Below are positions 40,778-58,615 of a stretch of 64,000 bases of DNA, piece after piece (the stretch's first letter is position 1; every line of letters starts with the position of its first letter). The stretch is from positions 1,122,629-1,186,628 of the forward strand of contig BQUP01000003.1 in the NCBI GenBank assembly GCA_022835595.1. The letters are read 5' to 3'. Under the pieces are notes generated by a model, which worked only from the letters and a program-made list of their open reading frames with translations, ran no database searches and was not told where the DNA came from. A program made the translations under genes and the position numbers. This stretch comes from Cystobasidium ongulense. Taxonomy: Eukaryota > Basidiomycota > Cystobasidiomycetes > Cystobasidiales > Cystobasidiaceae.

Positions 40778-43207
40778 ATGTTCGAGATAGATTCTAAATG
40801 GGCCTTGCTGGGCGCCACCATTCTCGCCGTCTGGCTGGCGTATCTTTTGACCGAAAAAAATGGACATGGTAGGCTACCACCCCGGGTAAAGGGCTTTCCA
40901 ATCATTGGAAGTCTCGTCGACATGGCGAAAGCTGGAAAGGCCGGAACACTTCACTTGACCATGCAAAAATGGGCTAAACAGTATGGACCGGTGTACCGTG
41001 TCAAAGTTGGCTTTACCGAAGTGAGTGGCGCGCCATACGAAAGAAGCTGTCTAGCCTGACCGAATGTTTATTCTCAGGAATACTTTATCAATACAGATCT
41101 CGCCGTCAAGGTATGTATCGAACGATTTGTGTACAGGGAAATTTGAGATTTTTGTGGCTGAGAACACTACTCTACACTATTGCTTCACAGACATTGATGG
41201 ATTCCGGAGCAGCTTACAGTTCCGAAAGACCAAGATGGATCTTTTCGAATGAGTGAGTGTTCCTCCAAGTTCTTGTCTAGTAATCTAGTCGTTTTATTCA
41301 ACAGAAGCTTCCAACAGATTTGTCTGCAACCAGAGGAATGTACTTCTGCTCTCAGCGTCACATGCCCGATGGAAGGTAGGTAAAAGAAAAGCAACAAATG
41401 TCCGCATATACCTCAACTGAGGGAGTTTTCTTCAGAACCAAAGAAAGGTCATCACAAATCAAATGACGTCTCCCTTGATGGCCGATTCGGCATTGCCGTA
41501 AACCTGGCTATATTTTTTTGGGTAGGATGTGGTGATGCTGATGGGTGCTCTGTCGTTTCCAGATTAAACTACTTCGAAACTGCCCGATTCCTGCATCGGA
41601 TATCGCACGACAAAACTGCTAGCATCGATTCGCGTCAAATCTGGAAAAAGCTCAAGCGATATCAATACTCTTTATTCACGATGCAGACTTTTGGATTCCC
41701 CGTGAGTCCAGGCACCTAACAAAAGAGCTGAATCTGAAGGTTGTTGCCTTCAAATACAGATTGAGAGGGATGATGATCCAGTTATAGACTATATATTTTG
41801 TGAGTATGAAGCCAAACAACGCAGCGATTTGCAAGCTTACGCCTCAATCTAGCTACTGGTTTGAAGCAGATCGTGGGTACCTTGCCGGGTGAACGTATCA
41901 TCGAGCTATTTCCTTTCCTTGGATACCTGCCAATGGCCCTAAAGCCATGGGAGAAGGAAGGTCGTGAAGCTTATATCGAGGATCTGAACTGGTGTCGCCA
42001 GCGTATGCAGGTGGGGACTGGTCCGTCCCCCTACCCCATTTGTACCATCTACTGACGCAATGTCCACCCCTTGCTGTGCTTTCAGCGTTGCCGCAAAGCT
42101 ATGAAGGAAGGCGTTGCGTTGCCAAGTGCTGCTCTGGCCCGTCTACTCAGTGACCCAAGATTAGCCGGGCTGGAAGACGACGATGAAGCTTGCTATCTCA
42201 TGTTGATGTTGACTATAGGAGCTGCCGATACCGTAAGGTCATGCAAGTTACCATTTGATCTCATTGAATTCTGATGGGAACGGCGTTGTAGAGCATGATG
42301 ACTACCTGGTCTTTCTTGGAGGCGATGTTGAGCTACCCAGAGGTGCAGAAGAAAGCTCAAGAGGATATAGGTGAGTCGATGTAGAGAATAAGCACCTCAC
42401 TTACTGACCTTCATTTAGATGCTGTCTGTCCTGACCGCTTGCCGAAATGGGAGGATCTTGACAATCTTCCGTACTTTCGATGTATAATGAAAGAGGTTTG
42501 GCGGGTAAGTAGCTGCTACTTCAAGTTTGCACTTGAAACGCGTCTAACGCCCTGTTGGGGGTTTCAGTGGAGGCCCCCTGTAGCTCTCGGACACCCTCAC
42601 CTTACGACTCGCGATATCGCTTTCGAGGATATGGTCATACCGAAAGGGGCATATCTGCATCTCAACGCCTGGGCAATCCAGCATGATTCAGCTCGACATG
42701 AGAATCCGGATGATTTTGTACCCGAGCGCTATGCAAACGATCCAACTACTGTCAGTTTATGTCACTGCAAGCGCAGCGGTCCAAGATACTTACTGTTCTT
42801 ACCCATAAACAGGCTCAACAAAGTATCAACGCCAAAGACGTGACGAAGCGTGACCATTTCGCATTTGGAGCCGGGCGACGCATCTGTCCAGGTTATCACG
42901 TCGCCGAGCGCAGCTTTGTGATTACTCTGATGCGCATGCTCTGGTGCTTCAATATCACAGCGAAAGAGGGCGTCGAGGTGCCTTTGAAGGATGGTAAGTC
43001 TCCAGGTACATCGCACACATCTAGGAATGCTTATGTTTAGCATCTTCCACCATAGATACGTTTGATGGTCCCATGCCCGCAACGCGAGGGCCGAGCATGC
43101 CAGTGCAGCTCGAGGTCAGAGATTCTTTCAGACAACAGATCATAGACGAAGAGTACGCGTCTGAGTGTTCAGCTTTTGCGGATGTGCTTGCGTTGGGAAC
43201 ACTGTAG
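40778..43207 (+). CDS. Cytochrome P450 (copy 1)
   Basis: Membrane-anchored haem monooxygenase, about 545 residues from fourteen exons: 40778-41020, 41078-41110, 41191-41252, 41318-41375, 41436-41497, 41563-41701, 41760-41799, 41853-42010, 42086-42232, 42292-42370, 42419-42504, 42568-42750, 42813-42993 and 43041-43207. An N-terminal anchor (WALLGATILAVWLAYLL) precedes the proline-rich hinge LPPRVKGFPIIGS. Diagnostic motifs are the I-helix IGAADT, the K-helix EVWR, PERY, and the haem loop FAFGAGRRICPG with the iron-ligand cysteine near residue 455. It resembles the broad fungal O-methylsterigmatocystin-oxidoreductase-like class, but the substrate cannot be told. It is not closely related to the tandem P450 pair at 54-58.6 kb. 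Several exons are only 33-62 bases, and phases close throughout. Confidence 0.88.
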
Positions 43208-53979: not shown

Positions 53980-56259
53980 TTATACTCTCCGAACCTTGAG
54001 CGGTAGCTGAGCACCTTCGTCTATTCTGCCTTCAATTACAGGTCGCATGACGATATTCGTTCGGAAAGTAATTCTTTCTCCGCTTGGCTGGAAATCAAAC
54101 TTGTTGACCAGGACAGCCGCAATTGTTTTGACTTCTAGTAAAGCGAAGCGATAGCCTAGATTAAAGGGTGGGAACGGACCTTTTAGTTTCGTCCCTTTTC
54201 AAGTTCGTTCAGGTGGCGCATCTCACCTATACATCCTCTGATGAAGATATAATTGTACATTTCAGTTCTTGTTCCGGCATGCCTTTTAATCTGATGAAAC
54301 TCACCTTGGTCCGCCTAAGAAGCTCAAGATCGGCGACCACGTTTCAAATGCTTTACTTTGCTTTTTCAGCTGGCCTTCATTGTGAAGCCAACGGTCCGGT
54401 CTGAAAAGCTCGGCGTCTGCCCCAAAGAGCTGTTTGTTTCTGTTGACCTGCATAATGTCGATTGCGACTGTCTGACCACGAGGAATATATATAGAGTCCA
54501 GCAACTTTCCATCACGCCCTCTTACAGGCTCCGATAAAGGCAGAACATCATCATCTACGGCTTCTCTTACAGTCAAAGCCACTGGTGGCAGTACTCGCAG
54601 AGTTTCGCGCTGGAAGAAATCACAGCAAAGTGTCAGTGTCAGCTCTGGAGTGCGCTCAGTCTTGCAGACTCATCTAAGCATTACTCACGACTACAGCATC
54701 CAAATATGGTAGGCTACTCAATTCTTCCGCATTGAGACTGCTTCTCCCTTCAGACTCCGCCAATCCGTAGGCCTCTTTCAGCTCCATTCTTAATTTGTGC
54801 TGTACATCTGGATAGCAAGCAAGCTCGTGAAGAAGGAAAGTCAGAGCAGTACCTGTGTGTCAAAAGTGAGGTGAGCGTGTGTGAAGCCTGATAGGCTTGG
54901 AAAGGAACTCACTGGAAGTCTCATGACCGGCAAGAAGGAAGACTGTAGTTCGTGCCGAGCAGTCTTAGCGATCTGGACAGTGCCCATGTGTATGCAGTGC
55001 TTGAAGCTGACTTACCTGAGACAGTGCCTTGAATCTGCAGCCAATTATGATTGTATAAGCCATTTGCTTTGAGATGTGTCAAGGCACATCGGTCCACCTG
55101 AAGACTCACCTCATCATCTTTCATCTTGTCTTTCTCGGTTCTAGAAAGTTTATTGGCTCTAACGATGCAGCTAAGGAGATCCTTCTTTCCTTCCAGTTCT
55201 TCCGAGTCTGCCACTTCTAGCTTATCACCCAGCATTGCTTTGCTCTCCTCCTTCATGAGCGCCATGGACGCTTTAGCTGCTTTGATCTGTGGTAGAGGTA
55301 ACTTGGCAAGTAGTGGAAGCTTGTTCAGAACTCGGATGATGAGGAAGAGTAGAGGGGTCAATGGACGTGGACGCAGCATTAAATTAAATGCATTGATCAA
55401 TTCATGCTCGTCTTGATCCAGTGACCCAACATGATAGCCGAAACCGGCTGAGCAGATGACTTCTAGGGTTGCTTTTGAAAGCCAATTCAGGATCGAATCC
55501 AGTTTTGCGTAGCCATCGCCTGTCTTTTCAGCTTCGACGACCTTGTCCAGACGAGCGGCTAGCTGAAGACCGAATGGGATCAGCAATACTACATAATTCA
55601 CATACCATTATAGCAAGGTAGCAAGGCCCACCTTTTCTGCCATCTCTGTAAATATCGGAAGATAAGTGTTTGTTTGTGCTTGCGTGAAGCTGGGAGTCAT
55701 GATGCGCCTCTGTCTCTTGTGTACATCCCCTTCAACGGTAAGTAGGCCGCGACCGGTAAGCCGCTCCAACCCTCTGACTTCTTCTGGGGGCTTTGGGAAG
55801 TTGCTTGTCTTTTGCATGAGAATGTAGTTTATTGCCTTTTCATCTGATATGGCAATCATTTGTTCCCCCGCAAAGGCCCTGTACTGGATGACGGGGCCGT
55901 ACTTGTCTGTCAGGGTGGAAAGGTTTGATTAGCTAGAATGTAGGTGCTTATTCGCCGCCTCGACTCACCAAACCAGCGAGCGTGGTGAACGCCAGTCTGG
56001 TCTCTGAACTGCTCAAGCTGCCTGCCGAACAGGAGAGATCGTCCAACAGAGGGCCCAGCGATGTTCCTCAGCGGGGAGAAGTATTCCGGATAGACCCATA
56101 GTTTCCACGCGGTGTATATCAGCAGTGTTGAGAGCAGAGTCCTGTGTATCGGGCTTCAGTGTGCGATGAAGTGCACGTGAAAACGGCACCTGCTCACCAC
56201 GCGACAAGAGCCGCAGGCACTCTGTCCAGCGCCAACACCTGAGCTGCGTGGGTCAGCAT
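53980..56259 (-). CDS. Cytochrome P450 (copy 2), ten exons including an 11-base exon
   Basis: Membrane-anchored P450, about 555 residues. Exons are 56259-56198, 56141-55969, 55906-55632, 55562-55110, 55034-55016, 54942-54913, 54852-54689, 54609-54305, 54237-54227 and 54155-53980, and all phases close. The anchor is TLLSTLLIYTAWKLWVYP, followed by RNIAGPSVGRSLLFG. The I-helix LLAGHETS spans two small exons of 19 and 30 bases. The K-helix RETLR and PPV follow. The haem loop reads FLGGPRGCIGYRF only when an 11-base exon encoding most of RGCIG is included; its cysteine is residue about 496. It resembles copy 3 along the whole length, including three shared intron sites. The family is CYP-like, of the type with AGHETS and GPRGCIG. 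Substrate unknown. Confidence 0.9.
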
Positions 56260-56708
56260 AGTGCAGCCAGTCTTGTCGAGCAGATGGAGTCGACGAGTAG
56301 GAGCAGAGGCAAGCAGTGTTGCCATTGACTGTTCAGTGCCTTTCTTCCGGCAGTCCGGTCCATCAAATCAACGGGGCGCCGGGCTGACTAAGCGCACGCT
56401 GTCCGACGCTGTCACAGAGTTGGCGTGGGTCTGCCGCTGCCCACCTGCCGAGTGTAGCAAGTGTACAGGGCCTCCCTCGAATAGCTGTGTGCTTGGGGAA
56501 GCTTCAAGTCGCTGCTGCTTGTCGATTATTGTACATGGCAATTCATATACCATTTCGACATGGACAACTAACAATGCATCGCAAAAGGCAAGACTTTCTT
56601 CACCGCCAGACTGCTACACTTCATGCATCATAGGCAAACTACTATCTCACGTGAGAATTGCCAGTCTTGCTACAGGTTCACAAAGCCGATATCTCCGACT
56701 CAACCGAC
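56260..56708. promoter_or_regulatory. Intergenic between the tandem P450 genes
   Basis: 449 bases that should include the promoter of copy 2 and the 3' untranslated region of copy 3. No gene is seen. Confidence 0.45.
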
Positions 56709-58615
56709 TCAAGGCCGCTGCACTTTTCTAATTCGCACTGGCAGCTGCCCACCGGCTTCTTCTTCTCCAACTACCACTGGTCTCGTAACCACATTGGACT
56801 TCCTGCAGATAGGAGTACCACCTTCATCCCTCTCCAAGAATTCAAAGCTCGCAATCAGCTCGTACACTAATATCTTCACCTCTAACAGGCTGAACTTGTA
56901 TCCTATACACCCTCGAGGACCTGCTAAAAAAGTCATCAAAGGAGACCAAGTCGTGAATTTCATAGCATTTTCAGCATTCTTGTCCATCTTATCCTCTTCC
57001 AGCCACCTTTCGGGGCGGTAGTCATCGGCATCCTCTCCGTATATTGCTTTAGATCGATTTATCGTATATATTCCAATGATGATTTGTTGCCCTTTCTTGA
57101 CGTGCAATGATGTGATCGTTTCTCCGTTCTTGCCCTTGATGGGCTCGCTCAATGGTATGAAATCTTCAGCGCTGGGCTCTCGATTTGTCATGAATACAGG
57201 GGGTGCGTAACGCAGAGTTTCGCGCTGTTTATTGTCATGAGGGCATTAGCGTATGCATGGATATGGACGGGTCTGTAGACTTACCACCACAGCATCCAGG
57301 TATGGCAACCTGCTCAAATCGTCAGGGGACAACGATGTGTCACCTTTGCTAGCGAGATCAGCCTTGAAATCGAGTACTTCTTTTCTTAGTTTGTCTTGTA
57401 CGTCGGTGTGGAGGCATAGATAGTAAAGAATCCAGTTGATAGCGGCTGCAGAAGTCTCGTGTCCTGCCAAACTGAATGTACTGAGCTGTCCCATAAGCTG
57501 CAAATTAGAATTAGCGTCAGCATAGATTCGTTTGATGGACTAACGAAGGTGAAGCAGGCTGTGTGTCTGTGTGTGAATGGGCTCACCTCGTCATCGCCAA
57601 GCTTGTCCTTCGGGTTTGTCGCTTGCATGTTAGCTTTAACAAGCAAACTAAGCAAATCTTTCTTTCCTTCCAGTTCTCCATCTATAGCTTGTTGTCTACG
57701 TTGTTCCAACATCTTCTTTCCCTCTCTCTGCATGACCCTCGTCGTTTCATTGATCCTCTTTGTCCCTTTTGTAGGTATAGCAGCGAGGAAAGGAAAGTAT
57801 TGCATGAGATATTGACCAATTATCATACCTAGCGATATCTTGCGAGGTTTGAGCATGTTTTGAAAGACATTTGCAAGCTCGTTATTTTCACTATCCATTG
57901 CGTGGAGTTCATAATCAAAGCCTGCGAGACCGATAATGTCGAGGGTGACTCTCGACAGCCATGGATACACATTTAATACGGCATAATTGCCCCTTTTGTC
58001 TTCTTCTTTCGATGTGTCTACCAAGTCTTCTAATTTTGCGACTAGTTTGAGCGCTTGCTCTTGAAAGATGGGAATGTATGAATTGACGGAAGCTTGAGTA
58101 AAGGGTGCGCTGAGCAGCCGTCTTTGATGGCGATGCTGATCTCCTTCGACAAAGAGTACACCTTCTCCGAGAATGCGAGCGAGTGCCCGACGGAGAGCCA
58201 TAGGTTTGGGGTATTCATACGCCTTGTGCACCAGTATGTACAGAAGAGCCTTGGGGTCTGTTACATACAGTCTCTTCTGTCCCAAGAAGCCGCTGTACAC
58301 GAATGTCGAGCCGTACTTGTCTGCAGAAGAGGAAGCACGTGATCAGCAGGGCTGCAATGCATACGCACATGTTCACTCACCTGCCCATTCTTTGTGCGGG
58401 ACACCTGCATCAGCTTTGAAGATGTACTTGAAGTTGCCCGAGAAGAGCGAGTCGTTTGGCGGGCCTGGAATGTTGCGTATCGATAGGCGGTAGGTGGGAA
58501 AGAGCCATATCCTATATAGCAGATAGAGCAGGACAGCGAGCAGGAGGAGGCCAGCCTTGCCGCCGGTCGTGCTGGGGTCCAATGAGGACAGTGACAATGG
58601 CAGCGACACGCCCAT
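56709..58615 (-). CDS. Cytochrome P450 (copy 3), four exons
   Basis: Paralog and tandem neighbour of copy 2, about 565 residues. Exons are 58615-58381, 58320-57587, 57497-57285 and 57224-56709. The N-terminal anchor AGLLLLAVLLYLLYRIWLFP is followed by LSIRNIPGPPNDSLFSGNF. Downstream are VEGDQHRHQRRLLSAPFTQA (C-helix), GDDE, LSTFSLAGHETSAA (I-helix), RETLRYAPPV (K-helix), RPERW and the haem loop FLAGPRGCIGYKFSLLE with the cysteine near residue 500. ATG 58615 is the first ATG before the anchor. It has only three introns, all at positions also used in copy 2. The pair probably arose by tandem duplication. The reaction catalysed cannot be inferred. Confidence 0.92.

Follow-up and report, generated by a model that had tools for sequence, protein, structure and literature searches.

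Passages of several published accounts describe very small exons. In Fusarium, the P450 gene CYP621A carries a 1-nt exon in its PKG motif, documented in 20 orthologues and by transcript reads (Nelson and Syed 2026, PMC12940212), and, as cited in the same account, the I-helix motif of Phanerochaete CYP5141A1 contains an exon of 8 nt. In the P450ome of Phanerochaete chrysosporium the shortest exon is 6 bp long and microexons occur in nearly one third (Doddapaneni 2005, PMC1184071). The cDNA-determined structure of bglA from Cystobasidium minutum (synonym Rhodotorula minuta) comprises 22 exons, ten of which are shorter than 30 bp (minimum 6 bp), and its introns span 55–69 bp (PMC9142197). Inclusion of a 20-nt microexon of Trichoderma Xlr2, essential to a domain of the protein, is reportedly glucose-dependent (PMC11121469), and small microexons of plants, including the 1-nt exon of APC11, are backed by RNA-seq and RT-PCR evidence (PMC8831610). 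No report of a microexon bearing the haem-ligand cysteine was found in the open-access literature on P450 and fungal microexons, which was represented mostly by passages.

The window analysed here, a stretch of 64,000 nucleotides from the 19.8-Mb genome of Cystobasidium ongulense (19 contigs), contains what by sequence reading is an intact cytochrome P450 gene (gene A; 577 aa, ten exons, minus strand, window 56325-53980), in which the haem-ligand cysteine falls within an 11-nt exon. Like the CYP621A microexon, this exon lies in a conserved P450 motif, is needed for both the frame and the motif, was inferred from a phase mismatch (the comparator there being an intronless family member) and sits in a gap between larger exons that is over double the length of a usual intron (PMC12940212). 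Unlike the 1-nt PKG exon of CYP621A, it is 11 nt long, holds the haem-ligand cysteine and is known from the DNA of one genome. The Phanerochaete genes are likewise basidiomycete P450s with short introns and frequent microexons, but they belong to a different fungus, and the part of that account covered here mentions no haem-cysteine exon (PMC1184071). Although bglA encodes a glycosidase and not a P450, it indicates that the species of gene A's nearest named orthologue splices many tiny exons (PMC9142197); a six-frame search of the present genome for GH1 gave no match, and a gene split into short exons could escape such a search. Xlr2 resembles gene A in carrying a fungal microexon, glucose-dependent inclusion being reported for Xlr2 only (PMC11121469), and the APC11 case in plants is similar in that tiny exons are often overlooked by annotation (PMC8831610).

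The ten exons of gene A measure, in order, 128, 173, 275, 453, 19, 30, 164, 305, 11 and 176 nt, and its nine introns, all GT-AG, are 56–79 nt long. In window coordinates, the exons, the two introns beside the 11-nt exon and a neighbouring paralogue are as follows.

Exon 1, 56198..56325, minus strand: 128 nt, counted from the upstream ATG
Exon 2, 55969..56141, minus strand: 173 nt, from sequence reading and spliced aligner
Exon 3, 55632..55906, minus strand: 275 nt, from sequence reading and spliced aligner
Exon 4, 55110..55562, minus strand: 453 nt, from sequence reading and spliced aligner
Exon 5, 55016..55034, minus strand: 19-nt microexon preceding the I-helix motif
Exon 6, 54913..54942, minus strand: 30 nt, bearing the I-helix motif AGHETS
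Exon 7, 54689..54852, minus strand: 164 nt, from sequence reading and spliced aligner
Exon 8, 54305..54609, minus strand: 305 nt, ending in phase 2 inside the arginine codon of FLGGPR
Intron 8, 54238..54304, minus strand: 67 nt, GTGAGT...CATCAG
Exon 9, 54227..54237, minus strand: 11-nt microexon AGGATGTATAG, encoding the end of R516, then G517, C518, I519 and the start of G520
Intron 9, 54156..54226, minus strand: 71 nt, GTGAGA...ATCTAG
Exon 10, 53980..54155, minus strand: last coding exon, 176 nt including the stop
Gene B, 56709..58614, minus strand: tandem P450 paralogue with four exons

A spliced protein-to-DNA aligner, purpose-written for this analysis, was run on gene A with five query relatives. 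Translation could start at the upstream ATG or at an inner ATG (56259), at which the spliced alignment of P0001 begins. Exon 4 ends at 55110 with two of the five queries and extends a few bases beyond with the other three. Exon 5 was recovered with two queries (P0001 and P0002) and missed with three; exon 6 was recovered with all five. Together, these 19- and 30-nt exons (window 55034-54913, minus strand) split the I-helix region of gene A, which is uninterrupted in paralogue B. Exon 9 was placed at 54237-54227 with five of five queries. P0003 also gave a 5-nt exon near the N-terminus, absent with the other queries and apparently spurious, so that a lone tiny exon in the aligner output does not by itself amount to proof.

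The predicted protein matches the Pfam p450 family (PF00067, E = 1.4e-67, positions 11-441 of 462) and contains the I-helix motif AGHETS (AGxET) and the K-helix motif ETLR (ExxR); the name of the latter and the AGxET spelling (there AGHETT) follow passages of PMC12940212. Its haem-thiolate loop (FxxGxRxCxG) reads FLGGPRGCIG and is whole only with the 11-nt exon spliced in. In an alignment with solved P450s, Cys518 falls in the haem loop (GPRGCIGYRFAL in gene A vs GPRNCIGMRFAL in P450 3A4).

Exon 8 ends in phase 2 with GGA CCA AG, and exon 10 starts at 54155 with GC TAT CGC TTC. Between them, the 11 bases are preceded by CAG (54240-54238) and followed by GTGAGA (54226-54221), and the codons across the junctions read AG+A for R516, GGA for G517, TGT for C518, ATA for I519 and G+GC for G520. 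The TGT codon of the haem ligand (54233-54231) thus lies wholly inside exon 9. At 11 nt and with canonical splice sites, the exon is a microexon (≤ 30 nt) of the small class (≤ 15 nt). An earlier note on this DNA had placed exon 8 at 54609-54305, ending in phase 2, and the start of exon 10 at 54155, coordinates that proved exact on re-reading. Translation bore out its further claims that a direct join of exons 8 and 10 is out of frame and loses the cysteine, that the 11 bases with their CAG and GTGAGA flanks restore both the frame and the haem loop GGPRGCIGYRF, and that skipping would give a frameshifted protein without the loop (a predicted product of 535 aa, shifted after FLGGPR). A nested-intron (stwintron) reading of the region was set aside as superfluous, since the 11 bases encode the loop.

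To gauge how readily such an exon might arise by chance, the 149 nt separating exon 8 from exon 10 were dinucleotide-shuffled 100,000 times, introns having to be at least 30 nt long. In 77,955 shuffles some open exon of no more than 60 nt restored the frame, and frame restoration alone therefore proves nothing. A cysteine-bearing 11-nt exon occurred in 5,028 of the 100,000, one reading [RH]xCx[GA] in 43, and one reading RGCIG in none. With the spliced aligner, the real span scored 1875 against a maximum of 1861 among 120 shuffled spans, a modest margin, and GGPRGCIG was restored in 0 of the 120. Some small exon (≤ 60 nt) was placed in 61 of these 120 spans, so that it is the score and the motif that argue for the exon, not the placement of a small exon as such. 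Sixty aligner runs on four microexon-less P450 loci with shuffled introns were free of spurious internal exons of ≤ 30 nt. It is the encoded motif, rather than frame repair, that constitutes the convincing evidence for the 11-nt exon, which from its sequence we consider, with high confidence, to be real.

Paralogue B adjoins gene A, 0.4 kb upstream. In paralogue B the haem loop, FLAGPRGCIGYKF (from 56930), is encoded without a break, reads CIGYKF and can thus be used as a ruler for the gene A microexon. By eye, three intron positions are common to the two genes and the remaining positions differ; the haem-loop introns would therefore have been gained in the line of gene A or lost in that of gene B. 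A whole-genome search with introns 8 and 9, which skips very common words, matched only the introns themselves. Repeated insertion-type introns are termed introner-like, and such an origin for introns 8 and 9 was rejected, there being no similar copies elsewhere in the genome.

A protein search with gene A gave 176 matches, 120 of which were checked for the loop. The haem-cysteine loop is present in 119 of these 120 listed relatives (111 fitting the haem-loop pattern, eight variant with the cysteine), and the remaining one (P0011) stops before it. The closest named match among the relatives listed is a protein of Cystobasidium minutum (P0001; 66% identity, 96% of length), a member of Cystobasidiomycetes. 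In a protein tree of 44 rows (four genes of this genome and 40 of 240 relatives), gene A pairs with the C. minutum protein (support 100/100) and paralogue B with P0002 (97/82), P0011 falling next outside (98/91). P0011 (ENA, 485 aa) terminates exactly at FLGGPR, at which point intron 8 of gene A would read AGG TGA; judging from its sequence, P0011 may be either a fragment or a gene model in which the corresponding intron and microexon were missed. Viral contigs were searched for DNA of the relatives; four stretches fitted the pattern, none of which encoded a relative.

The gene is represented by one genome assembly only, which leaves some room for a decaying pseudogene or a misassembly with a merely coincidental microexon. 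We regard this as very improbable, given nine GT-AG introns, a full 577-aa frame, a whole haem loop, the identity to the C. minutum protein over almost its entire length and the failure of all 100,000 shuffles to produce an exact RGCIG.

For comparison with other P450 genes of this genome, eight query proteins were aligned to each of 27 P450 loci; ten loci scored at least 600, and the 17 scoring below 600 were dropped. Some of the dropped loci also show tiny exons in their best alignments, and these were left uncounted. Three of the ten confident loci had internal exons of ≤ 30 nt that 50% or more of the retained queries supported. The small exons of gene A (11, 19 and 30 nt) were obtained with two of two retained queries in this genome-wide alignment, and a 20-nt exon in the P450 locus at 168 kb of C3 with four of four. 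At a locus on C11 (C11:94000-98500, ~ 95 kb), a 9-nt exon, CTTCATATA, encodes LHI directly after GRRICVG and was supported by four of four retained queries; an 11-nt exon there, seen with one of four queries only, was dropped. Inspection by eye also located introns beside the haem cysteine after FLG (C6, 58 kb), directly preceding the cysteine codon (C10, 77 kb) and immediately after CAG (C13, 93 kb). These unlike positions suggest independent origins and hint that introns were gained repeatedly and independently in the P450 haem loop of this genome. A third, distantly related P450 with many short exons lies in the window at 41000-43200 on the plus strand, its alignment score of 456 being below 600.

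The ten confident loci yielded 67 consensus introns of ≤ 120 nt (median 66 nt, range 45–98 nt); three longer ones (129, 232 and 240 nt) lie outside this list, making 70 in total. Splice sites were scored leave-one-out, and percentiles are given among these 67 P450 introns. The donor of intron 8 is at the 100th percentile (the highest of the 67) and its acceptor at the 79th, and the donor and acceptor of intron 9 are at the 40th and 24th percentiles, slightly below average.

Within the span, three other exons of ≤ 60 nt keep both the frame and the cysteine. A 5-nt form, AGGAT (donor GTATAG), would lose I-G; a 41-nt form (acceptor AACAAG) would add ten residues ahead of the loop; and a 35-nt form would combine both changes. 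Their sequences make these alternatives unlikely, and use of any of them instead of the 11 bases appears extremely improbable: their donor and acceptor are each at the 1st percentile, the 35- and 41-nt forms imply a first intron of just 37 nt, paralogue B reads CIGYKF, and the two residues are missing in none of the 119 loop-bearing relatives listed.

The earlier note had also seen a difficulty in the exon being far below the size normally needed for exon definition. This was not borne out: the introns on either side measure only 67 and 71 nt, and basidiomycete introns have been argued, in the available passages of an alternative-splicing survey, to be recognised across the intron (intron definition; PMC2397502). 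If short introns are recognised as units, a size of 11 bases does not present the difficulty expected under exon definition, and exon-definition limits would hardly apply to exon 9. In C. elegans, both PRP-40-independent microexons adjoin unusually short introns, according to passages of PMC8378409.

We consider it very probable that gene A is an ordinary, apparently intact basidiomycete P450 whose 11-base exon is joined via intron definition, most likely constitutively. The haem loop would be interrupted by two short spliceosomal introns with 11 bases between them, and each intron would be recognised as a unit in this species. Two spliceosomes are probably too big to flank 11 bases together, so that intron removal would be sequential and would thereby join the exon into the mRNA. 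Retention of intron 8 is predicted to bring a stop immediately after FLGGPR, and retention of intron 9 a stop 13 residues past RGCIG. Since these and all other outcomes read from the sequence destroy or alter the haem loop, constitutive inclusion is the most likely.

The proposal that exon 9 acts as a regulated on/off switch, in which conditional skipping or intron retention would yield either a P450 lacking haem or an mRNA targeted for decay, went unsupported and seems improbable. The predicted skipping and intron 8 retention products would suit it, as would the presence of a UPF1 zinc-binding domain in the genome; glucose-dependent inclusion in Xlr2 (PMC11121469) and alternative splicing of Phanerochaete CYP63, reported in passages of PMC1184071, offer precedents. 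The sites of intron 9, middling to slightly weak, also lie under the middle of the distribution, but those of intron 8 are strong, with cryptic sites only at the 1st percentile. Skipping, moreover, requires an intron of 149 nt, whereas 67 of the 70 consensus introns are ≤ 98 nt and only two exceed 149 nt, and intron definition predicts retention, not skipping, as the usual error (PMC2397502, in part). A PRP40-like protein encoded in the genome, in which Pfam identifies one WW and three FF stretches, fits either reading. SRRM_C, a domain of metazoan microexon factors, had no match in this genome or in any control genome and is hence uninformative.

Tiny exons are an already known habit of fungal P450 genes, of which gene A is a striking further example. 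Its sequence indicates that exon 9 is a real, probably constitutive microexon at an unusually critical place, and gene A shows that very little exon suffices in a short-intron fungus, even for an unchangeable catalytic residue. It also carries a warning for annotation: a pipeline missing the 11 bases would call the gene truncated or haem-less, and such an error might leave a model resembling P0011. Were the switch reading correct, splicing would control an enzyme very directly, through the addition or withholding of its haem ligand.
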